Source: Clostridiales bacterium (GTDB lineage: Bacteria; Bacillota; Clostridia; Saccharofermentanales; Saccharofermentanaceae). Taken from it: a stretch of 64,000 bases of DNA. How positions within the stretch are numbered: the first letter of the stretch is position 1; each line of letters begins with the position of its first letter. Shown here in pieces: positions 20,756 to 31,744 of the stretch. Below the pieces are notes generated by a model that saw only the letters and a list, made by a program, of their open reading frames with translations, had not been told where the DNA came from and searched no databases. Location of the stretch: contig JAFWFV010000005.1 in the NCBI GenBank assembly GCA_017515465.1, positions 1 through 64,000 on the forward strand. Reading direction: 5' to 3'. The position numbers were made by a program, and so were the translations under genes.

Positions 20756-22042
20756 ATGAAAAAGCACAGTGACAGGGAAATGGAGATGTACGGTGTCCGC
20801 CCCAGGAGTAATCTGGGCAGGAACATCGCTATCGGCATCAGCTGCGGGATCGTCGGAGCCGCTCTGGGTGCCGGTCTTTGTTATCTGCTCCTGTCAGAGA
20901 TGGCCAGGATCAAGACGTCCGTACACGTGGAGATGGGAGATACCTTTGACCGTTCCGTGTTCTTTGACGGGGACCTCGATCAGGCCAAGATCATGACCGA
21001 CCTGACCAAGATCTCAACTGATGAACCCGGCACTTACCAGATACCCATCAACTATTTCGGCAAGAAGGCAACATCCATACTGGAGATATCAGACACAACG
21101 CCTCCCACCGGAACTGCCGTCCCCCAGACATGCATGAAGGAACAGCCTCCTGAGGCCTCCGAGACAGTCAAGGATCTCTACGACCTGTCAGGTACGGTCT
21201 ATGTCCAGTATTCCGGCAGCCCCAACGTCATGACGGCAGGAGAGACAAATGTACCTGTAGTCCTGACCGATGCCTACGGCAACGTCAGTGTCGTAAGCGT
21301 TCCTTTCACGGTCCTGGAAGACACTACTCCTCCCGTCATCGAGGGCGTTCAGAATATTGCAATGGTGGCAGGAGATCCTGCCAAGCTGATGGAAGGCATC
21401 ACCGTCACAGATGACTATACGGATAACCCCACTCTGGATGTCGATGTAACGGGATTCGATCCCAACACACCGGGAACATATGAGATCTTCTATGTATCCG
21501 CTGACGAGGCAGGAAATGAGGCCAGAGTGCCGGTAACTGTAACCGTTGCCGTCAGGCCCGCCGATTACGTATACCCCGATGAAGTTTACGCCAGGGGCAG
21601 GGAGATCTATAGCCAGATAATCACCAGCAATAACCTGACGGATGTCCAGATCGCGATGCGCATATTCAAATGGGCATTCGACAACATCAAATATGTGTCA
21701 TCCAACACCGAGAAACACTGGACGGGCGCAGCCATGCAGGGCTTTAACGACAGGAGGGGAGAATGCTCCATCTTCTACGCCGTATGTAAGGTCCTGCTGG
21801 ATATCGCAGGTATCGAGAATCTGAAAGTGGACGGAGGACATATCTGGAACCTGGTCAAGCTCAACGGCAAGTGGTATCACTGTGATGCATGTCCCACCAG
21901 GACGCACAAGAACACCTACTGGTTCATGCGTCTGGATTCTCAGCTGGATTCGAGATTCCCCTTTGACGGATCAGAACTGCCGGAACGTGCAACAGAGGAC
22001 GTTCAGGGCAGGCTGGACTTCACAAATCTCACAATTAACTAG
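20756..22042 (+). CDS. Membrane-anchored transglutaminase-like protein with Ig-like repeats
   Basis: A 428-residue surface protein. After a short cytoplasmic tail, residues about 23-47 form one transmembrane helix. Ig-like (DUF5011-type) modules follow: EDTTPPVIEGVQNI and YEIFYVSADEAGNEA are diagnostic. The C-terminal domain is a transglutaminase/papain-fold domain with Cys337 (RRGECSIFYAV), His362 (GGHIWNLVKLNG) and Asp377 (CDACP), so the triad is intact. Relatives act as peptidases or cross-linkers at the cell wall. Whether this one cuts or links is not visible. Confidence 0.8.
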   Translation: MKKHSDREMEMYGVRPRSNLGRNIAIGISCGIVGAALGAGLCYLLLSEMARIKTSVHVEMGDTFDRSVFFDGDLDQAKIMTDLTKISTDEPGTYQIPINYFGKKATSILEISDTTPPTGTAVPQTCMKEQPPEASETVKDLYDLSGTVYVQYSGSPNVMTAGETNVPVVLTDAYGNVSVVSVPFTVLEDTTPPVIEGVQNIAMVAGDPAKLMEGITVTDDYTDNPTLDVDVTGFDPNTPGTYEIFYVSADEAGNEARVPVTVTVAVRPADYVYPDEVYARGREIYSQIITSNNLTDVQIAMRIFKWAFDNIKYVSSNTEKHWTGAAMQGFNDRRGECSIFYAVCKVLLDIAGIENLKVDGGHIWNLVKLNGKWYHCDACPTRTHKNTYWFMRLDSQLDSRFPFDGSELPERATEDVQGRLDFTNLTIN

Positions 22043-22143: not shown

Positions 22144-22707
22144 ATGAAATTTACAAAGATCATTTCCGTTGCTCTCGTTTCTGTCATGGGTGTTGCCATG
22201 ATCTCAGCGTGCAACGATCAGAATTCAAACGAGACCAACTTCTCACTCAATACAACAGCTCAGTCACAGCTGCCCATTCAGACTACTGTTGCACAGGGTG
22301 TTGAGGGCTACGTATTCAAGTACAGAGGTGCTGACATCCGTGTTAACACAGACATGAACGACATCATCTCCACACTGGGTGATGACTATGCTTACTTCGA
22401 GGCTGCATCTTGTGCAGGTCTCGGCATGAGCAAGACATACACATACGGTTCAGGCTCAGTCGTAATCAGCACTAACCCTAACGGTGCAGTAGACGTAATC
22501 TCCAGCGTTGCCCTGTACGACGATACAGTACAGACACCTGAGGGTATCTACATCGGATGCACAAAGGATCAGGTAATCGAGGCTTACGGCCAGGCATCTG
22601 AGGAAACAGATACGACTCTGACCTATGAGCTCAACGATACAGTACTGGTATTTGTCTTTGACGGAAACGGCAAGGCTTCCAATATCATCTACAACGGTAT
22701 CGTCTGA
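22144..22707 (+). CDS. Lipoprotein of unknown function (copy A)
   Basis: A 187-residue secreted protein with a lipobox (MISAC) at about residue 23, so it should be membrane-anchored. The mature part has motifs shared with the product of 29499-30059: VNTD, GDDY.Y.E..SCA..G, K.YTY, ISSV, and EGI.IG. I do not recognise a named family. GGAGG precedes the ATG. Codon use differs from the neighbours (fewer AGG and more GCT, GTT and ACA codons), which may mark high expression. A strong terminator follows. Confidence 0.7.
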   Translation: MKFTKIISVALVSVMGVAMISACNDQNSNETNFSLNTTAQSQLPIQTTVAQGVEGYVFKYRGADIRVNTDMNDIISTLGDDYAYFEAASCAGLGMSKTYTYGSGSVVISTNPNGAVDVISSVALYDDTVQTPEGIYIGCTKDQVIEAYGQASEETDTTLTYELNDTVLVFVFDGNGKASNIIYNGIV

Positions 22708-22728: not shown

Positions 22729-22761
22729 GGGCTGTCTCAGTTGAGACAGCCCTTTGTTTTT
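22729..22761 (+). terminator. Rho-independent terminator after lipoprotein A
   Basis: GGGCTGTCTC and GAGACAGCCC form a perfect 10-bp stem with a 4-base AGTT loop, followed by TTTGTTTTTG. Its 3' arm also overlaps the candidate -35 region of the next operon. Confidence 0.92.
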
Positions 22762-22771
22762 GTATTATAAT
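22743..22771 (+). promoter_or_regulatory. Promoter of the racemase/adenylase operon
   Basis: TATAAT at 22766-22771 is a perfect -10 box. GAGACA (22743-22748, 17-base spacing) or TTGAGA (22741-22746, 19-base spacing) could serve as the -35 box. Either would be embedded in the stem of the upstream terminator. A short leader ends in AAGGAGG before the GTG start at 22801. Confidence 0.6.
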
Positions 22772-22800: not shown

Positions 22801-23499
22801 GTGTCACTCGGAATCATCGGCGGAATGGGACCCATGGCTACGGCTGTCTTCTATGAGAAGATAGTAGGTCTCACCGACGCCTCACGTGACCAGGACCACA
22901 TAGATACGATCATATACAGCTGTCCGCAGATCCCTGACAGGACGGCATTCTTTCTCGGCAGGAGCAGCGAGGACCCCTATCCCGTCATCCTCAGCCTGGC
23001 AAGGAAACTGGAACAGCAGGGCGTATCCATCATCGCGATCCCCTGCATCACCGCAGCATACTTCCAGAAGGACCTGTCAGAGGATATCGGTGTTCCCGTG
23101 ATCAACGGGATCGTTGAAACGTCCAGGAAGCTGGCAGGCATGGGTATCAAGTGTGCAGGGATCATGGCAACCGAGGGCAGCATCAGAAACAGGCTCATAG
23201 CTGACAGCCTCGAGGATCACGGCATCACCCCCGTGGAGCCTGATGCGGAGTATCAGAAGATCATAACGGATATCATATACGACGATGTCAAGGCAGGCCG
23301 TCCCGTAGATCTTGCCAAGCTGGACAAGGTGGCAGATCACCTCACATCCAGAGGAGCACAGATCTGCATTTTGGGCTGCACCGAACTGTCAGTCGTAGCC
23401 CATGACCACGACCTGGGTGACAGGTATTGTGACATCCTGGACGTACTGGCGGAGGCATCCGTTGCCGCATGCGGAAAAGAGATAAAAACGGAGAATTAA
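22801..23499 (+). CDS. Aspartate/glutamate racemase family protein
   Basis: A cofactor-independent amino acid racemase of 232 residues. It starts with the family motif GIIGGMGPMAT. Two candidate catalytic cysteines are Cys82 (IPCITAAY) and Cys193 (LGCTEL). In aspartate racemases the first site usually reads PCNTAH; here Asn and His are replaced, so the substrate may differ. The start is GTG with AAGGAGG upstream. It leads an operon with an adenylase, carrier protein, MBOAT and SGNH protein and is 1 base from the next gene. The likely role is supply of a D-amino acid for surface polymer modification (inference). Confidence 0.85.
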   Translation: MSLGIIGGMGPMATAVFYEKIVGLTDASRDQDHIDTIIYSCPQIPDRTAFFLGRSSEDPYPVILSLARKLEQQGVSIIAIPCITAAYFQKDLSEDIGVPVINGIVETSRKLAGMGIKCAGIMATEGSIRNRLIADSLEDHGITPVEPDAEYQKIITDIIYDDVKAGRPVDLAKLDKVADHLTSRGAQICILGCTELSVVAHDHDLGDRYCDILDVLAEASVAACGKEIKTEN

Positions 23500-23500
23500 G

Positions 23501-25015
23501 ATGCAGCAGAAAAACGTTCTGGAATATATAGAAAAGACAGTGCTGGAAGTCCCTGACAAGACCGCCTATGAATCATTTGAGGGTGAGACGGTCTCACTGA
23601 CATTCAGGCAGGTATACGATACGGCACGTTCCGTCGGCAGCTTCCTGGCAGATAACGGTTATTACGGCGAGCCCGTCATCATATTCATGAAAAGGACCCC
23701 CAGGGCCATTGCCACCTTCTTTGGAACGGTCTACGGAGGATGTTCATACGTACCCATCGATGAGGAGATGCCCAAGATGAGGATAGACCTCATTTTGAGT
23801 TCAATGAACCCCCGTCTCATAATATGCGAATCATCCACAAAGGAACTGGCTGACGGTTTCGATTTCAATGGCGATACCGTCCTGTTCGAAGATATCTGCA
23901 GTACTCCCGCAAACGATGAGAGACTCGCTGATATCAGATCACGCCAGATCGATACCGATCCCATTTACGTGGTATATACTTCCGGCTCGACTGGAGTGCC
24001 CAAGGGTATCGCAGCATGCCACAGGAGCGTCATTGACTACATAGAACACCTGTCTGACGTTCTGGGCTTTGACAGGGATACCAGGTTCGGCAACCAGAGC
24101 CCCTTCTATTTCGATGCCTGTCTCAAGGAACTCTACCCCACCATCAAGTTCGGTGCCTATACTGCCATCGTTCCCAAGCAGCTGTTCATGTTCCCGCTAA
24201 AGCTCGTGGAATTCCTGAACGATAAGGAGATCAACACCGTTTGCTGGGTAGTATCCGCTCTCACCATGATCTCCGCTCTGGGAGCATTTAAGAAAGATAC
24301 ACCACACTTTTTAAGGACCGTCGCTTTCGGTTCGGAGGTCTTCCCCATAAAGCAGTTCAACAGATGGAGACAGGCCCTGCCTGATGCCAGGTTCATCAAT
24401 CTCTACGGCCCTACGGAGGCCACCGGCATGAGCTGCTACTACGAGGTCAACAGGGAATTCGAAGATGGTGACGCCATCCCCATCGGGCGTCCCTTTGACA
24501 ATACGGATATCCTCCTGCTTGATGAGGACAGGAAGGTCCCTGCAGGCGAAGTGGGTGAGATCTGCATCAGGGGAACAGCTCTCACTCTGGGATACTATAA
24601 CGATCCCGTCAGGACTGCCGAGGTATTCGTTCAGAATCCCCTCAATACACACTACCCCGAACTGATCTACAGGACGGGGGATCTTGCCAGATATAATGAA
24701 TACGGTGAACTGGTCTTCGTCTCCCGCAAGGATTACCAGATCAAGCACATGGGACACAGGATCGAGCTGGGAGAGATAGAGGCAAACGTCAATACACTGG
24801 ATGAGATATATCTGTCCTGTGCCGTTTACAATAAACAGAAGGACAGGATTGTGCTATATTATACCGGTACGATCGAAGAGGGCGCACTGAAGGATGTTCT
24901 GACTGACAAGGTCCCCAGATACATGCTTCCCGCCGTATTCACCAAACTGGAAGACATGCCGCTGACACCCAACGGCAAGGTTGACCGTAAGAAACTGCTC
25001 GAGATGGCAAACTAA
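23501..25015 (+). CDS. DltA-like amino acid adenylation enzyme
   Basis: A 504-residue AMP-forming ligase that should activate an amino acid and load it on the adjacent carrier protein. Core motifs are intact: VVYTSGSTGVPKG (A3), the Asp of FDACLKELYP (A4, amino-group binding), NLYGPTEAT (A5), YRTGDLARY (A7), IKHMGHRIELGEIE (A8) and PNGKVDRKKL (A10 lysine). The gene order resembles dltA-dltC-dltB-dltD, which D-alanylates teichoic acids. The pocket region around WVVSALTMISAL does not look like the DltA segment that holds the D-Ala-sensing Cys, so another substrate is possible. The name dltA is withheld for that reason. Confidence 0.85.
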   Translation: MQQKNVLEYIEKTVLEVPDKTAYESFEGETVSLTFRQVYDTARSVGSFLADNGYYGEPVIIFMKRTPRAIATFFGTVYGGCSYVPIDEEMPKMRIDLILSSMNPRLIICESSTKELADGFDFNGDTVLFEDICSTPANDERLADIRSRQIDTDPIYVVYTSGSTGVPKGIAACHRSVIDYIEHLSDVLGFDRDTRFGNQSPFYFDACLKELYPTIKFGAYTAIVPKQLFMFPLKLVEFLNDKEINTVCWVVSALTMISALGAFKKDTPHFLRTVAFGSEVFPIKQFNRWRQALPDARFINLYGPTEATGMSCYYEVNREFEDGDAIPIGRPFDNTDILLLDEDRKVPAGEVGEICIRGTALTLGYYNDPVRTAEVFVQNPLNTHYPELIYRTGDLARYNEYGELVFVSRKDYQIKHMGHRIELGEIEANVNTLDEIYLSCAVYNKQKDRIVLYYTGTIEEGALKDVLTDKVPRYMLPAVFTKLEDMPLTPNGKVDRKKLLEMAN

Positions 25016-25033
25016 GTTATAAGGAGAATTGCA

Positions 25034-25264
25034 ATGGACGTAATCATCGAGATCCTCAAAGAACTTCATCCTGATGTGGATTATGAGACAAATACATCTC
25101 TGGTCGACGACAGGATCATCGACTCCTTTGATATCATCAGCATCGTTGCAGAGATCGATGACAGACTGGATGTTCAGATCCCTGCAGAGGAGATCATCCC
25201 CGATAACTTTAACTCAGCTGCTGCTCTGGCAGCTCTCGTAAAGAAGCTCGAGGACGAAGACTGA
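25034..25264 (+). CDS. Acyl/peptidyl carrier protein (DltC-like)
   Basis: A 76-residue acidic four-helix carrier. Ser31 in RIIDSFDIISI is the phosphopantetheine site (D-S-[LF] motif). AAGGAG precedes the ATG. Lying between the adenylase and MBOAT genes, it most likely carries the activated amino acid as a thioester to the membrane acyltransferase. It is not the missing fatty-acid AcpP: its sequence and context are of the aminoacyl carrier type. Confidence 0.88.
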   Translation: MDVIIEILKELHPDVDYETNTSLVDDRIIDSFDIISIVAEIDDRLDVQIPAEEIIPDNFNSAAALAALVKKLEDED

Positions 25265-25267
25265 TAA

Positions 25268-26860
25268 ATGCTGTTCGTTTCCTATGAATTCATAGCTTTC
25301 ACGATCTTATTGTTCGTGCTCTACTATCTGTTGCCGAAGAAATGCCAATGGCCTCTTCTGCTCATTGCAAGCTACGTATTCTACTGGATAGCAAACCCCT
25401 ATTACCTGATATTCATCGGCACGACCACCATATCCGCCTTTGCCGCCGGCGTCCTGATGGACAAGGCTCAGGGCAGGGCTGATCTGGCCATCAAGGCTGC
25501 CAAGGAGGACGGCAGCTATACCTCCGACCTGAAGAAAGCCCTTAAGGCAAAAGCCAAGTCATCGAAATGGAAGATACTGCTGGTATCGATGCTGTTCAAT
25601 CTCGGCATCCTGGCAGTCACCAAATACACCAATTTCGTCATCACCAACATCAACAAGTTCCTGGAGGACGGCGCTGCGCTCAAGGCCGTAGACCTGATAA
25701 TCCCCATGGGTATCTCCTTCTACACTTTCCAGACCGTCGGATATCTCATCGATACATACAGGGGAACCGTAAAGGCGGAAAGAAATCCCTTTAAACTGGC
25801 GCTGTTCGTATCGTTCTTCCCACAGCTGGTCCAGGGCCCCATCTCGCGTTACGGGGACCTGTCCAAGACGCTGTACGGGGAACACAAGTTTACGGAAAAG
25901 ACATTCACGTACGGTCTGGTCAGGATACTGTGGGGTTACTTCAAAAAAGTAGTGATCGCAGACAGGATCATCACTGCCGTAACAGCTCTCATCGGCGACA
26001 CGGAAACATATACCGGAGCATACGTTTTCATTGCGATGTTCTTCTATGCTTTCGAGCTCTACTGCGACTTTACGGGCGGCATAGACATCACCATCGGAAT
26101 TGCCCAGTGTCTGGGTATTACCGTAACGGAGAACTTCAACCTGCCGTACTTTTCCAAGAACATCAAGGAATACTGGAACCGCTGGCACATCACCATGGGT
26201 TCCTGGTTTACGGATTACATCTTCTATCCCCTGTCCGTTGACAAGAACATGCTGCGTCTGTCCAAATGGTCCAGAGAGCATCTGGGCAAGTTCTGGGGCA
26301 AGAGGCTCACCGTATATCTGTCCGCATTCATCGTGTGGCTGGCAACGGGTGTATGGCACGGTGCGGCATGGAACTTTATCGTCTGGGGTCTCATGAACTT
26401 TGCAGTCATCATGATCTCCCAGGAATTAGATCCCCTCTACCTGCGCTTCCACAAGAAGTTCAAGGTCAAGGACAAGGCCGGGTACGGTGTGTTTGAGATC
26501 ATCAGGACCATCTTCCTCATGAGCCTCATCAGGATGTTCGACTGCTACAGGGACGTCCCCATGACGTTCAGGATGGTGGGCACGATGTTCACCCGTTTCA
26601 GGCTGAGTACTTTCACGGACGGCAGTCTCCTGCAGCTGGGACTCGGCTCATCTGACTATATCGTACTGGCAGCAGGCCTGCTTATCATACTGTCGGTCAG
26701 CATCTACAAGTACCGCTCCAAAAAGGATATCCGCGACAGGCTCTACGATACGCCCTGGATCTGGTATGGCGCCATGTCATTCCTCCTGATCATAACGCTT
26801 CTGTTCGGCGCATATGGTCACGGCTATGACGCTACGCAGTTCATCTACAATCAATTCTAA
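25268..26860 (+). CDS. MBOAT-family membrane acyltransferase (DltB-like)
   Basis: A 530-residue polytopic enzyme that should take the aminoacyl group from the carrier protein and pass it across the membrane to an extracellular acceptor. MBOAT motifs are present: IPMGISFYTFQTVGYLID, LVQGPISRYGDL, YWNRWHITMGSW with His307, and the catalytic His364 in GVWHGAAWNF. A charged insert of about 40 residues (about 64-103) follows the second hydrophobic hairpin. The start is 3 bases after the carrier protein stop. Confidence 0.9.
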   Translation: MLFVSYEFIAFTILLFVLYYLLPKKCQWPLLLIASYVFYWIANPYYLIFIGTTTISAFAAGVLMDKAQGRADLAIKAAKEDGSYTSDLKKALKAKAKSSKWKILLVSMLFNLGILAVTKYTNFVITNINKFLEDGAALKAVDLIIPMGISFYTFQTVGYLIDTYRGTVKAERNPFKLALFVSFFPQLVQGPISRYGDLSKTLYGEHKFTEKTFTYGLVRILWGYFKKVVIADRIITAVTALIGDTETYTGAYVFIAMFFYAFELYCDFTGGIDITIGIAQCLGITVTENFNLPYFSKNIKEYWNRWHITMGSWFTDYIFYPLSVDKNMLRLSKWSREHLGKFWGKRLTVYLSAFIVWLATGVWHGAAWNFIVWGLMNFAVIMISQELDPLYLRFHKKFKVKDKAGYGVFEIIRTIFLMSLIRMFDCYRDVPMTFRMVGTMFTRFRLSTFTDGSLLQLGLGSSDYIVLAAGLLIILSVSIYKYRSKKDIRDRLYDTPWIWYGAMSFLLIITLLFGAYGHGYDATQFIYNQF

Positions 26861-26875
26861 GGAAAGGAACGCAGT

Positions 26876-27949
26876 ATGAAAAAACGCATCGTCGCTCTCA
26901 TATCAGTACTGGTGATCACAGGCATAATATTGGCGTTCCTGTCATGTCTGGTCATGCCCAAGTACATGTCCGGCATAATCGAGGGTTCCCTGACGGAGGA
27001 ATACTACGATGACAAGGCTCCTCACGAAGTCATATTCATCGGTGACTGCGAACTCTACGAGAATGTGTCAACTGTGGAGCTGTACCGTGAATACGGCATC
27101 TCTTCCTACATCAGAGGCAACTCCCAGCAACTCATCTGGCAGTCCTACTATCTCCTGGAGGACGTGCTCCGCTACGAAAAGCCCAAGGTGGTTGTATTTA
27201 ATGTCCTCGCTCTGAAATACAACGAGCCGAAGAGCGAGACATACAACAGGATGACATTAGACGGCATGAAGTGGTCCATGACCAAGGTAAATGCCATCAA
27301 GGCATCAATGACAGAGGATGAGAACTTCGTCGAATATGTATTCCCCTTCCTGAGGTTCCACTCCAGATGGCAGGAACTTAAAGCCTCCGACTGGAATTAC
27401 CTCATGGGCAAAGAACCCGTTTCCATAAACGGATACTATCTGAGAGCAGACGTCAGGCCTGAGACGGGATTCCCCGAACCCAAGTCCCTGACAGATCCCG
27501 CATTCGGTTCCAATGCCATGATGTACCTGGACAAGATGGCAGACCTGTGCAGGGAAAACGGCATAGAACTGATCCTGGTAAAGGCTCCCATCACCTACCC
27601 CTACTGGTATCCGGAATGGGATCAGCAGGTATCGGACTATGCACAGGAAAAGGGACTGACATACATCAACTATATAAACGAGATGGATGCCATGGGCCTG
27701 GATATGACAACAGACACCTATGACGGCGGCGAACATCTGAACGTATACGGTGCGGAAAAGTTCGCAGACCATATCGGAGCCTATCTCACGGAAAACTACG
27801 ATCTCACCGACTACAGGAACGTTCCCGGAGTCGCAGCTATATGGGCAGAAAAGGAATCACTCTACGACTCCATCCTGCAGCAGCAGTTATCAGAGATCGC
27901 ACAGTACGGGGAACTGATGAGCTTCGGCAAGAACGCCATTGAAGAATAA
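26876..27949 (+). CDS. SGNH-like extracellular protein (DltD position)
   Basis: A 357-residue protein anchored by an N-terminal hydrophobic helix (about residues 5-25), with the rest probably outside. Its fold markers are VIFIGDCELYEN near residues 53-62 and the C-terminal DGGEHLNVYGAEKF with Asp283 and His287. The usual SGNH/DltD nucleophile Ser is replaced by Cys58 (GDC). As the last gene of the operon it takes the DltD position, the probable final transferase or hydrolase at the surface. From memory, clostridial relatives share the GDC motif, so Cys may be the working residue rather than a loss. Confidence 0.75.
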   Translation: MKKRIVALISVLVITGIILAFLSCLVMPKYMSGIIEGSLTEEYYDDKAPHEVIFIGDCELYENVSTVELYREYGISSYIRGNSQQLIWQSYYLLEDVLRYEKPKVVVFNVLALKYNEPKSETYNRMTLDGMKWSMTKVNAIKASMTEDENFVEYVFPFLRFHSRWQELKASDWNYLMGKEPVSINGYYLRADVRPETGFPEPKSLTDPAFGSNAMMYLDKMADLCRENGIELILVKAPITYPYWYPEWDQQVSDYAQEKGLTYINYINEMDAMGLDMTTDTYDGGEHLNVYGAEKFADHIGAYLTENYDLTDYRNVPGVAAIWAEKESLYDSILQQQLSEIAQYGELMSFGKNAIEE

Positions 27950-27960
27950 GCCGTTCTATC

Positions 27961-29496
27961 TTACATAAACGCCAGGAATTCACACGAATAGAATGCAGCT
28001 GATGCCATGCAGAACAGGCATATTGCCCCGGTCATGAACTTGGTAAGAAGTGACAGGTATTCGTTCCTGGACTTAAAGTCAAAGCACGTTGCCGTAAATA
28101 CCGCAGAGCATATGATCAGTGGCAGGACATACCTGAAGTTCACAGAACAGATGAGAGGGTATTTAAAGGCAAAGAGAATGCAGCTTGTAAGCTCCGTAAA
28201 CATCAGGATGAAGACAGCAAAGAGCTCAATGTTCTTCTCCTTTACTGCCTTAATGAATGCCTTGACGGCGCCAGCTATTATCATGACCATTACGATCAGT
28301 GCGACTATGGTCAGGAGTATCGCCAGCAGGACGAACAGCTCACTGTTGTGGTGATCGAATTCATCGAATAAAGAGCTCTTGAACAGGGTCATGAATATGT
28401 TGTAATCCTTGTTGTTGATGTCGAACACAACAAAGGGTATGGACGATGTTACCGGGGATATCCCGAACAGTCTGTCGGCCACGGAATAGCCGGACAGATC
28501 CTGGTTGGGGACTATTCCGAGATCAAATACATAAGTCGGGGGTATGCCCCACCTGATGTAGTTCCTCACGGGGAACCATAATCCGAGGGGAAATACGACG
28601 GCCGCAAATGTCAGGAACATGAGCCACATCTTTTTGTCCCTGAACCTGGCCTTGATAAGTGCAGCCAGGAATATGAATCCCACGGGGAAAGCGATAAGGC
28701 CTGCTGAGATCTTGGTCATCATGCCCAGCCCTATGCATATGGCGGTGATGATGATCCTGCCGAAGCTGTGCTCCCTATACCACTTTATGGCATTGTAGAA
28801 CGCCGCGATCACCAGCATGTTGGCCAGGGGATCGTTGTTGATGTGTCCTGCGGACACTATCAGATAAGGGTAGAAACAAGCCAGTGCAAATGAGCAGATG
28901 AGTGCCGTCTTTTCAAAGCCGAATGCCTTAAGGATCTTATAGATCAGGATCAGCGTTACGAGCGAGTAGAAAAGTGATATGCACTGCAGGAATCCGTAAT
29001 CACCTGCCCTGCCGGGAAAGATCAGGGAATTGACCTTGATCGCGGCAGCACTTATGGCGTGATGGAGGGGCGGATGGTAGAACTGTCCCGTCCCCCTGAA
29101 ATCGAAATCAGGCAGATGATGGTTATTGAGCAGGTACAGTATGTAGTTATCGTGTACCGCTTTGTTCATGTCAAAGTCAAAGGTGCCCACGTCATGCTGA
29201 TAAATGTCACTGGTCTTGGCATAGATTACATACCATGTGCGTGCCAGGAATCCTCCTGCTGCGCACATGATGGCGGCGGCCTTTATATCGAGCTTTTTTA
29301 TGATGGCGAGAACTGCCATAAATATAAAGAGCAAGGCCATGAGGGTGATGTAGATAACCATCATGGTCTTGCTGTTTATACCTGTAACAGATGTGCTCCC
29401 GCCTGTCAGAAGCCAGACAGATATGCACAGCAGACCCGATACGATATAAGGATGCTCAGATATGAGCTTCAGGGATCCGATGTGCTTGCCGTCCAT
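27961..29496 (-). CDS. GT-C family membrane glycosyltransferase (copy A)
   Basis: A 511-residue polytopic protein of the GT39/ArnT-like type that uses polyprenyl-phosphate sugars on the outer face. Family features include an acidic first loop (DVGTFDFDMN), FYHPPLHHAISA, GLGMMTKISAG, FPLGLWFPVRNYIRWGIPPTY and CSVNFRYVLP. These segments recur almost unchanged in the product of 30095-31744, so the two are paralogues. It converges on the Dlt-like operon with a 12-base gap. The sugar and acceptor are unknown. Confidence 0.8.
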   Translation of the reverse strand: MDGKHIGSLKLISEHPYIVSGLLCISVWLLTGGSTSVTGINSKTMMVIYITLMALLFIFMAVLAIIKKLDIKAAAIMCAAGGFLARTWYVIYAKTSDIYQHDVGTFDFDMNKAVHDNYILYLLNNHHLPDFDFRGTGQFYHPPLHHAISAAAIKVNSLIFPGRAGDYGFLQCISLFYSLVTLILIYKILKAFGFEKTALICSFALACFYPYLIVSAGHINNDPLANMLVIAAFYNAIKWYREHSFGRIIITAICIGLGMMTKISAGLIAFPVGFIFLAALIKARFRDKKMWLMFLTFAAVVFPLGLWFPVRNYIRWGIPPTYVFDLGIVPNQDLSGYSVADRLFGISPVTSSIPFVVFDINNKDYNIFMTLFKSSLFDEFDHHNSELFVLLAILLTIVALIVMVMIIAGAVKAFIKAVKEKNIELFAVFILMFTELTSCILFAFKYPLICSVNFRYVLPLIICSAVFTATCFDFKSRNEYLSLLTKFMTGAICLFCMASAAFYSCEFLAFM

Positions 29497-29498
29497 CG

Positions 29499-30059
29499 TT
29501 ATTCAGTTCTGAGATTAGCGTAGTCGTAGACTATTCCGGAGACCTCATCGTTCTCAAATACGAAGGAGAGAACGCTCTCACCCTTTGTATACTTGATGAC
29601 GCTGCCGGCATCCTGATAATCATCTCCATAAGCGGCTGTTACATCATCTCTGGATGAACCTATCCTGATGCCTTCCTCAGTTGAGATAACGTCTGCCTTG
29701 ACCTCTACGGAACTGATCATGTCCCTGTCTCCATCCGGATATGTATAGATGACAAAGAGAGGATATGTGTAGATCTTATCCAGGCCCTGATATGCGCAGG
29801 AATTTGATTCGTAATATGTGTAATCATCTCCGAATGCTGCGAGTGCTGCTGATACGTCAGTATTTACCTGTACGGTGGTGCCTGAATAGGTGAACTTGTA
29901 GGAATCAGAGCTGACTGATGCCTCTCCGCCGTCTCCGGGAACAGTGATGGTCGTTTGTCCTCCGATGTTGACGGGATCCGTCTGCTCCTCTCCTGATGAA
30001 CATCCTGCCAGCGCGAGGGCTGCTGCCAGTGAGACTGCTATGATAATCGATCTTTTCAT
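29499..30059 (-). CDS. Lipoprotein of unknown function (copy B)
   Basis: A 186-residue lipoprotein (lipobox LAGC at about residue 20) with a Ser/Gly/Thr-rich linker. It is a clear paralogue of the 22144-22707 product: VQVNTD, FGDDYTYYESNSCA, GLDKIYTY, MISSVEV, EGIRIG and a closing VLSFVFE.D..SGIVYD region correspond in order. It lies between the two GT-C paralogues, 2 bases from the one downstream, suggesting a joint role in a surface glycan or teichoic acid-like polymer. Confidence 0.75.
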   Translation of the reverse strand: MKRSIIIAVSLAAALALAGCSSGEEQTDPVNIGGQTTITVPGDGGEASVSSDSYKFTYSGTTVQVNTDVSAALAAFGDDYTYYESNSCAYQGLDKIYTYPLFVIYTYPDGDRDMISSVEVKADVISTEEGIRIGSSRDDVTAAYGDDYQDAGSVIKYTKGESVLSFVFENDEVSGIVYDYANLRTE

Positions 30060-30094
30060 TTTAATTTACCTCCGTTTTCCACCCGGCTATTTTA

Positions 30095-31744
30095 TCACAA
30101 GTTCTGCAGTTCGAGCCACATATCGTAGTACCACAGTGAAATGTAGAACACATAAGACATTACTGACACCGCCACAACGCTGATATCCGTTATGGTCCCC
30201 AGTATCCTGATCCTGTCATCTCTTCCGATCCTGTCCCTCAGTACTCCTGCCCCCAGGAACAGCGGTATCAGTACGGGAACGATGTATCTGAAGTTCATGG
30301 TGCAGATAAAGGGGAACTTGAAGCAGAAGATCGTGAAGCTGATGAGTTCCACTGCCAGCAGTGCGGTAAGAGATATTATCTCCCATGTGTACTCCCTCTT
30401 CCTGACCGTTCTGATTATCAGATATATGACGCCGATAAATGCTGCAACTGCCAGGAAGGCAACTATCGTAAATATGATAAAGCTCAGTGTTCCAAAGAAC
30501 ATGTGCACCCTGTAATCGTCATCGTCAAATACTGCAGACCAGACGGCAAAGTACGGGATGTTATAGTATCCGCTGTTATCGAAAACATCGAACAGGCGCT
30601 GCCACACACTGTACTTTTCCAGAGAAGAATCGTAGAAAGGTACGGGGATATATGTCGGCGGCACGCCCCATCCCAGGTAGTTCCTTATGGGGAACCACAG
30701 CCCCAGGGGGAAGGATATCAGTGCAAATATGCCGTACTGTCCCCAGAGCCTTAAATCCTTGCCCTTTTTCTCTATCAGTACTGCCAGCAGGATGATGCCT
30801 ACGGGAACGGCGGCCATCCAGACGGACAGCTTTGTCATCATGCCCAGGCCTATGGTAAGGGCGCTCAGCACCACGTGTACCGTCTTTCGTCCTTCCCTGT
30901 ACCAGCGGAAGATAAAATATACCGACATGACGAACAGCATTATCGATAATATGTCGTTGTTCAGTTCTCCTGCGTTGAAGACGAAGAACGGGAAGACTGC
31001 CATCATGAGCGTCATGGTGAGATCCGTCCTGTCAGTCAGACCGAACATCATAACGATCCTTCTCATGAATACGACCGTAAGCATGCTGTATACGGTGGTG
31101 AACATCTGGAGGACATCGTAGTTCTGCGCATATTTTGGGAATACCATGCCGTACAGCCTGAGAAAATAAGCGCAGATCAGATGATGGAACGGCGGGTGAT
31201 ACCACTGATCCATCTCCCTGACGTCAGCTGCGGGGATCCATCCGTAATATCTGATATAGCTGATATATCCCGCATGGTGGGGATCGAATACCGTCTCACC
31301 GAAGAATCCCACGTCGTTCTGCCTGAGCCAGCATGGAGTGTACTGGCTGTAACAGAACATGAGCCAGAAACCCATGGCCAGGATCAGATGTATCAGCTGA
31401 TCGTGGTCAAAGCTGCCCTTGATGCGCAGATAGATGAGGCTGCCTGCTATGATCACCGTTCCTCCGGCTGAGAGGATCAGGTTGTTATCCGCACCCAGCA
31501 GGCAGGATAAGGCAGATATCATGCCGATGGCAACGCCTGATATAGCGCAGGCAGGGATCTTTGCCTTTGCAACATAGAGGCAGAAGGCACCGAATCCCCC
31601 GGTCACGAAGAACATGTCAACGGGACCCATCAGAGATGAGTCTCCCCTGGCAAACAGTATGCAGTACAACAGCACTCCTGCCATGAAAAGGACAGGGTGT
31701 TTTACCATGAAACTGCCGTTTGTATCATCCTTCGTTTTGCTCAT
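30095..31744 (-). CDS. GT-C family membrane glycosyltransferase (copy B)
   Basis: A 549-residue paralogue of the 27961-29496 product. It shares QWYHPPFHHLICA, IGLGMMTKLSVW, FPLGLWFPIRNYLGWGVPPTY and TMNFRYIVPVLIP, with about a dozen membrane segments. No ribosome binding site precedes the ATG at 31744. Instead TGTTATACT, an extended -10 box, ends 6 bases upstream, so the transcript may be leaderless. An alternative start at the Met of residue 13 also lacks a ribosome binding site. Confidence 0.8.
   Translation of the reverse strand: MSKTKDDTNGSFMVKHPVLFMAGVLLYCILFARGDSSLMGPVDMFFVTGGFGAFCLYVAKAKIPACAISGVAIGMISALSCLLGADNNLILSAGGTVIIAGSLIYLRIKGSFDHDQLIHLILAMGFWLMFCYSQYTPCWLRQNDVGFFGETVFDPHHAGYISYIRYYGWIPAADVREMDQWYHPPFHHLICAYFLRLYGMVFPKYAQNYDVLQMFTTVYSMLTVVFMRRIVMMFGLTDRTDLTMTLMMAVFPFFVFNAGELNNDILSIMLFVMSVYFIFRWYREGRKTVHVVLSALTIGLGMMTKLSVWMAAVPVGIILLAVLIEKKGKDLRLWGQYGIFALISFPLGLWFPIRNYLGWGVPPTYIPVPFYDSSLEKYSVWQRLFDVFDNSGYYNIPYFAVWSAVFDDDDYRVHMFFGTLSFIIFTIVAFLAVAAFIGVIYLIIRTVRKREYTWEIISLTALLAVELISFTIFCFKFPFICTMNFRYIVPVLIPLFLGAGVLRDRIGRDDRIRILGTITDISVVAVSVMSYVFYISLWYYDMWLELQNL

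Follow-up and report, generated by a model that had tools for sequence, protein, structure and literature searches.

A conserved Dlt-like gene module with its own racemase in Clostridia, and its possible acidic D-amino acid substrate

Which amino acid is attached to the cell surface when an operon built like dlt brings along a racemase of its own? Among carrier-dependent aminoacylations of surface polymers in bacteria, D-alanylation is the well-studied case. Here we analysed a stretch of 64,000 nucleotides from a Clostridiales bacterium (GenBank assembly GCA_017515465.1, contig JAFWFV010000005.1, positions 1 to 64,000; hereafter the window), in which five complete genes in a row on the plus strand encode a racemase, an adenylase, a carrier protein, an MBOAT membrane acyltransferase and an SGNH-fold protein. 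We propose, with moderate confidence, that they form the core of a Dlt-type envelope aminoacylation module whose substrate is an acidic D-amino acid, D-aspartate being the likeliest.

Gene order and conservation of the module

The five genes are separated by 1 to 18 bases, the racemase and adenylase genes by a single base. An original prediction, made from the letters of this DNA, had described these genes and their one-base spacing and had seen in them a Dlt-like logic with a dedicated racemase. The open reading frames, family scans and a fold model agreed with the genes and their coordinates (Table 1), and the gene set and its recurrence in other genomes agreed with the logic. The limits given to the module, 22801-27949, proved too narrow. 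Two upstream genes, for a membrane-anchored surface protein with immunoglobulin (Ig)-like and transglutaminase-like domains (TGL-Ig) and for a small lipoprotein (lipo1), are part of the same conserved module, which comprises seven genes in total. These two genes had escaped notice, as had an acyl-shuttle motif fused to the MBOAT protein and a Cys replacing the Ser of the SGNH protein.

For comparison we took the 80 best-matching adenylase relatives from the species genomes of GTDB (61 to 88% identity). The loci are nearly all from Clostridia, namely Saccharofermentans and relatives, Lachnospiraceae and Oscillospiraceae; cultured relatives with such a locus include Mobilitalea sibirica (L066), Sporofaciens musculi (L097) and Ruminococcaceae bacterium YRB3002 (L021). 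A racemase of the same family was present in 74 of the 80, almost always directly 5' of the adenylase gene, and the complete gene order was kept in most. We concluded that the neighbourhood of racemase and adenylase is not due to chance. TGL-Ig relatives were found directly 5' of the racemase in 56 of the 68 loci with more than 1 kb of upstream sequence; lipo1 lies upstream in the genus of the window and directly 3' of the SGNH gene in most other genera. The pairwise distances of racemases and adenylases gave a matrix correlation of 0.65, a value reached by none of 500 permutations, and the distances of racemase, MBOAT, SGNH protein, lipoprotein and TGL-Ig each tracked those of the adenylase (r 0.61 to 0.73, 0/500 permutations). 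These correlations fit a common descent of the module, and species descent contributes to them as well. Of 291 genomes in a sample of the class, 35 contained the SGNH family; in a phylum sample it was found in 2 of 348 genomes.

Adenylase pocket, racemase and the substrate

The adenylase scored 326.7 bits with the amino-acid adenylation model TIGR01733 (cut-off 317.4) and stayed below the DltA cut-offs (TIGR01734, 279 versus 559.85 bits; PRK04813, 285 versus 476 bits), whereas a true DltA of the same order, the positive control, reached 577 and 600 bits with these two models. In a tree of 16 sampled module adenylases, three DltA of the same order and DltA of B. cereus, the DltA and the module adenylases formed separate groups with support 100/99 each; the tree program flags long branches, which leaves the depth of the split unsure. 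Neither a DltA nor a standard dlt operon over the cut-off was found elsewhere in the draft genome of the window, which is 93% complete.

The pocket was mapped by alignment with the B. cereus DltA sequence, taken from the PDB match. The ten-letter code DAKVAGLGMK was obtained for 79 of 81 adenylases; that of B. cereus DltA is DLMTLCTVAK, and the three DltA of the same order have nearly identical codes to the latter. The DltA residues for binding of amino group (Asp197), carboxylate (Lys403, Lys492) and ATP (Arg397; PMC4176424) have kept equivalents in Asp205, Lys415, Arg420 and Lys493. The small hydrophobic pocket of DltA with its D-Ala-sensing Cys269, which lies within FLFC(269)GE (PMC4176424), is not kept: Met201 is replaced by Lys209, invariant in all 81 adenylases together with Asp205 and Ala206, and Cys269 by Gly in 80 of them. 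A pocket unlike that of DltA, with the Cys lost, had been predicted correctly; the segment then quoted for it, WVVSALTMISAL, comprises adenylase residues 249-260 and is not the site of the D-Ala-sensing Cys.

These results bear on an ordinary D-alanylation operon that had acquired a racemase. Such an operon would have the same set of functions, and the named families nearest to the adenylase include DltA. With the curated cut-offs for DltA, DltB and DltC all missed, the D-Ala pocket not kept, the adenylases in a clade of their own, and a shuttle fused to the MBOAT protein with no DltX gene seen, we consider it very unlikely, and a plain dlt operon was rejected on model cut-offs, pocket and tree.

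A pocket with an invariant Lys suggests an acidic, negatively charged side chain. In the specificity codes of nonribosomal peptide synthetase (NRPS) domains for Glu, Asp, D-methylaspartate (D-MeAsp) and D-Glu, a basic residue at position 239 is paired with Gly at position 301, the position of the Cys, and the surfactin Glu code begins with DAK and has Gly at the same position. The module adenylase thus shares its basic 239 and Gly 301 with NRPS domains that select acidic residues (Glu of surfactin; D-MeAsp and D-Glu of microcystin), and differs from them in standing alone and in feeding a membrane acyltransferase rather than a peptide assembly line. A microcystin paper in which the D-MeAsp and D-Glu codes were sought gave none.

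The racemase matched PF01177 (E 2e-31) and TIGR00035 (197 bits, cut-off 93) and has two catalytic Cys, which places it in the Asp subfamily. Its nearest solved relative by sequence, and best PDB match, is the aspartate racemase of Pyrococcus horikoshii (1jfl, 167 bits), with which it shares the catalytic residues Cys82 and Cys193 as well as Arg47 and Lys164, the equivalents of Arg48 and Lys164; all four are invariant in 75/75 racemases. We take this Arg and Lys to be binders of the substrate carboxylate, a pair linked to acidic substrates. Unlike 1jfl, the window racemase has CITAA for CNTAH and an adenylase as operon partner.

An NCBIfam model for cysteate racemase (CuyB), NF052483, was also matched with 196 bits (cut-off 190), and cysteate is an isostere of aspartate. 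The authentic aspartate racemase 1jfl, however, reaches 250 bits with the same model. The match therefore does not discriminate; the label was set aside as uninformative, and D-cysteate as the substrate appears extremely unlikely. The model itself may mislabel aspartate racemases.

In the window genome only a single other PF01177 protein was found, and its sequence is of MurI type. On this ground we rejected MurI function for the racemase of the operon, and peptidoglycan D-Glu is presumably supplied separately. The same pathway could run on D-glutamate, with the racemase acting on Glu and the adenylase carrying D-Glu via either carboxyl group; a basic pocket residue with Gly would suit Glu equally well, and the DAK start and the Gly are shared with the surfactin Glu code. 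With MurI encoded in the genome we infer that Asp is likelier than Glu, and since the racemase is also like aspartate racemases, with their Arg and Lys kept, we regard D-glutamate as unlikely.

Several observations weigh against the proposed pathway for an acidic D-amino acid. Asn83 of the CNTAH motif is Ile in 53 of 75 homologues, and owing to this replacement the specificity of the racemase may have shifted. Five loci with some upstream sequence have no racemase adjoining the adenylase; of the six loci in which no racemase was found, at least one has a contig that stops inside the adenylase. Around the compared loci neither a recurrent adjacency of the operon to polymer synthesis genes nor any recurrent neighbour beyond the seven genes that could name the acceptor was found. 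Finally, the adenylase pocket alone leaves D versus L undecided and would admit an L-amino acid. In NRPS domains the residue at the place of Lys209 forms part of the wall of the side-chain pocket for L substrates, and Gly in place of Cys269 opens that pocket. In DltA the mutation C269A relaxes the preference for D over L (PMC4176424). An adenylase for L-Asp or L-Glu, next to a racemase with another role or running in reverse, would be compatible with this. Yet L-Asp is plentiful in any cell and would make a travelling racemase needless, so that we hold an L substrate to be rather improbable; the company of the racemase is best explained by a need for the D form.

The invariance of Lys209 in the adenylases and of Arg47 and Lys164 in the racemases, which we assume to be linked to acidic substrates, likewise makes a neutral or unusual D-amino acid improbable. 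For such a substrate Lys209 would supply a hydrogen bond or serve another part of the pocket. Predictions from pocket codes are fallible, the racemase superfamily includes enzymes of broad specificity, and the racemase motif is altered at Asn83; in addition, the dlt pathway of S. aureus can take up D-Ser (PMC12071552).

From the carrier to a proposed surface acceptor

The carrier protein matched PF00550 with 22 bits (cut-off 20.8) and remained below the DltC cut-offs (TIGR01688, 19.9 versus 52 bits; PRK05087, 33 versus 68 bits); the Ser of its DSFDI motif is invariant in 76 carrier sequences. Similarly, the MBOAT protein matched PF03062 (50 bits, cut-off 27) and remained below the DltB cut-off (TIGR04091, 158.5 versus 375 bits). 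In addition to PF03062 it has the conserved His and the C-terminal FXYXXF of PatA-type proteins, and nearly all aligned homologues end in this shuttle motif, the exceptions looking like truncated copies. In PatA the Tyr of the C-terminal FXYXXF bears the acyl group in a demonstrated relay, and in the dlt pathway the acyl-Tyr relay is performed by a separate microprotein, DltX (PMC12148441). No DltX gene, that is, one for a separate small protein ending in FXYXXF, was seen, and the operon leaves no gap for one. By its match to the relay of PatA and DltX, the FIYNQF tail supports a Dlt-type pathway for an acidic D-amino acid. The module would thus combine a Dlt-type donor, the carrier thioester, with a PatA-type fused shuttle. 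It is like the PatA/PatB-type MBOAT-SGNH O-acetyltransferases in this fusion and in the separate SGNH partner, and unlike them, as they use acetyl-CoA, in its carrier protein and amino-acid adenylase.

The SGNH-like protein gave no significant Pfam or NCBIfam match. Its AlphaFold model, with a predicted local distance difference test (pLDDT) of 93, has an SGNH fold; the fold matches include DltD 6pfx, PatB 7tlv and GDSL lipases, DltD of Enterococcus faecium being among them, and VIA Z was 10.8 to DltD 3bma and 12.3 to TesA. The protein agrees with the SGNH/GDSL superfamily in fold and departs from it in the nucleophilic Ser after GD, in place of which it has Cys58; in a sister protein, encoded by the related module L142, the aligned residue is Ser. 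We found no description of a Cys nucleophile in an SGNH protein in the literature searched, a weak absence given its incomplete coverage.

Compared with the dlt operon (DltA-DltB-DltC-DltD-DltX, teichoic acid D-alanylation), the module likewise has a single operon for adenylase, carrier, MBOAT and SGNH-fold transferase, with the ATP-, amino- and carboxyl-binding residues kept and an SGNH model that resembles DltD. It differs in its own racemase, in the pocket Lys and Gly where DltA has Met and Cys, in the fused shuttle without DltX, in the Cys for Ser of the SGNH protein and in two extra surface proteins. A racemase paired with DltA-like and MBOAT genes was not described in the literature searched; because this search was incomplete, the novelty is provisional.

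On the basis of these motifs we propose the following pathway. The racemase would convert L-Asp to D-Asp, which the adenylase would activate with ATP, Lys209 holding the non-activated carboxylate and Gly277 opening the pocket. D-Asp would then be loaded onto the phosphopantetheine at Ser31 of the carrier, and the MBOAT protein would hand it over, outside the membrane, to the Tyr in the FIYNQF tail at its own C-terminus. There the SGNH protein would take it over, probably as a thioester on Cys58, and pass it on to an extracytoplasmic acceptor, which may be a surface polymer of teichoic or another type. An aminoacyl thioester intermediate might allow amide as well as ester products. TGL-Ig and the lipoprotein would work outside, with the acceptor or the product as their possible target. 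More tentatively, and with less confidence than in the main proposal, we suggest a dedicated envelope D-aspartylation system of gut Clostridia, racemase-fed and carrier-dependent, with a Cys-based SGNH transferase and a transglutaminase-like processor or eraser, giving a zwitterionic surface without the net positive charge of D-alanine.

Regarding the acceptor, two PF00884 membrane proteins with a length like that of LtaS are encoded in the window genome, as is one strong glycerophosphotransferase-type protein. Genes for teichoic-type synthesis thus seem to be present, which makes a teichoic-type acceptor possible; other acceptors are possible as well. The original prediction had expected an acidic D-amino acid to lower the positive charge of the polymer. 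In a D-aspartyl ester both an amino group and a carboxylate remain free, and it would be about neutral relative to the bare polymer, and, compared with D-alanylation, it would not raise the net positive charge. As a whole, that interpretation is largely supported: its Dlt-like logic with a dedicated racemase and its pocket unlike DltA hold, while the choice of pocket segment and the negative charge do not. If our proposal is true, many Clostridia of rumen and gut would have a surface chemistry to be read differently, including resistance to cationic peptides and immune recognition; the gut would contain D-aspartate in an additional, bound form, and the module would offer an SGNH transferase with a Cys nucleophile.

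Table 1. Features of the module in the window, with the basis of each assignment.
Feature	Position	Strand	Basis or remark
TGL-Ig, membrane-anchored surface protein, Ig-like and transglutaminase-like domains (accessory gene)	20756-22042	+	PF01841, PF16403
lipo1, small lipoprotein (accessory gene)	22144-22707	+	module co-occurrence, lipobox
Intrinsic-terminator-like hairpin and T run, between lipo1 and racemase	22729-22752	+	10 bp stem GGGCTGTCTCAGTTGAGACAGCCC, then TTTGTTTTTG
Two overlapping promoter-like sites 5' of racemase	22741-22771	+	consensus match only
Asp/Glu-family pyridoxal phosphate-independent racemase, Asp-racemase subfamily	22801-23499	+	PF01177, TIGR00035
Stand-alone amino-acid adenylating enzyme, DltA-like role, not DltA	23501-25015	+	TIGR01733 over cut-off
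Pocket segment DACLK: Asp205, Ala206, Lys209 (DltA Asp197, Leu198, Met201)	24113-24127	+	alignment
Gly277 at DltA Cys269 position	24329-24331	+	Gly in 80/81 adenylases
Carrier protein, DltC-like role	25034-25264	+	PF00550
Phosphopantetheine Ser31 of carrier	25124-25126	+	Ser of DSFDI motif
MBOAT membrane acyltransferase, DltB-like role	25268-26860	+	PF03062
Catalytic-type His364 of MBOAT	26357-26359	+	WHGAAWNF conserved
C-terminal acyl-shuttle hexapeptide FIYNQF, fused to MBOAT	26840-26857	+	fits FXYXXF (PMC12148441)
SGNH-fold extracytoplasmic transferase (predicted), DltD-like role	26876-27949	+	model and fold search
Cys58 of SGNH protein, at nucleophile position	27047-27049	+	Cys in 65/65 aligned sequences

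Accessory genes and related loci

TGL-Ig matched PF01841 (E 1.6e-7) and PF16403 (E 1.3e-6), and its Cys337, His362 and Asp377 are at least 90% conserved in 70 sequences. In lipo1 the lipobox Cys23 and an SCA motif are invariant in 50 sequences; the core of its model has a pLDDT above 90, with weak matches to YfeY/DUF4309 folds. Because lipo1 and the racemase have a terminator-like hairpin and promoter-like sites between them, transcription of both accessory genes is probably separate from that of the operon in the window. Such hairpins are, in the region overall, no commoner than in shuffled sequence, and the promoter-like sites, TTGAGA-16-TATTAT and GAGACA-17-TATAAT, are consensus matches of 10/12 each. 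Downstream of the operon, on the minus strand of the window (27961-31744), two PMT_2-type membrane glycosyltransferase genes enclose a gene for a second lipo1-like lipoprotein (29499-30059), and a similar PMT_2/lipoprotein arrangement lies beside the operon in L022 and L023.

In three of the compared loci (L063, L069, L088) the racemase gene is displaced, the order being racemase, TGL-Ig, adenylase, carrier; the racemase of L063 and L088 retains Asn in CNTA. A second pair of an SGNH protein (GDCE, likewise with Cys) and a lipoprotein is encoded elsewhere in the window genome (G000:C39:29348-31100; L136:9349-11101), flanked by transglutaminase/Ig-type proteins and with no MBOAT or adenylase gene beside it. 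A further genome of the genus (L137) has a similar pair without MBOAT, and SGNH copies of this type are present in many genomes of the genus.

Two stand-alone adenylases with the code DLQILCLEAK (L099:4690-6216, on G000 contig 57, and L141:6607-8342) lie in an apparent surface-polysaccharide cluster. This code keeps the DltA-type Cys. The L099 adenylase has no adjoining MBOAT gene, and in L141 a carrier gene adjoins. A further cluster, L102:2319-5970 (G000 contig 62), encodes an FkbH-domain protein (TIGR01686, 258 bits), a glyoxalase-like protein and an MBOAT protein, in this order, and may serve to place a glyceryl group on an acceptor at the surface.

The sister module L142:965-6306 (G013 contig 8), in a genome of the same taxonomic order, has adenylase, GNAT protein, carrier, MBOAT and SGNH genes. 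It is like the window module in its adenylase, carrier, SGNH protein and pocket Lys and in an MBOAT protein with a FIY tail (FIYQGF), and unlike it in a GNAT protein instead of the racemase, in the Ser of its SGNH protein and in the code DVKAMSLCNK. The exchange of racemase for GNAT together with a different code would agree with a tailoring of the amino acid by the first gene in modules of this kind.

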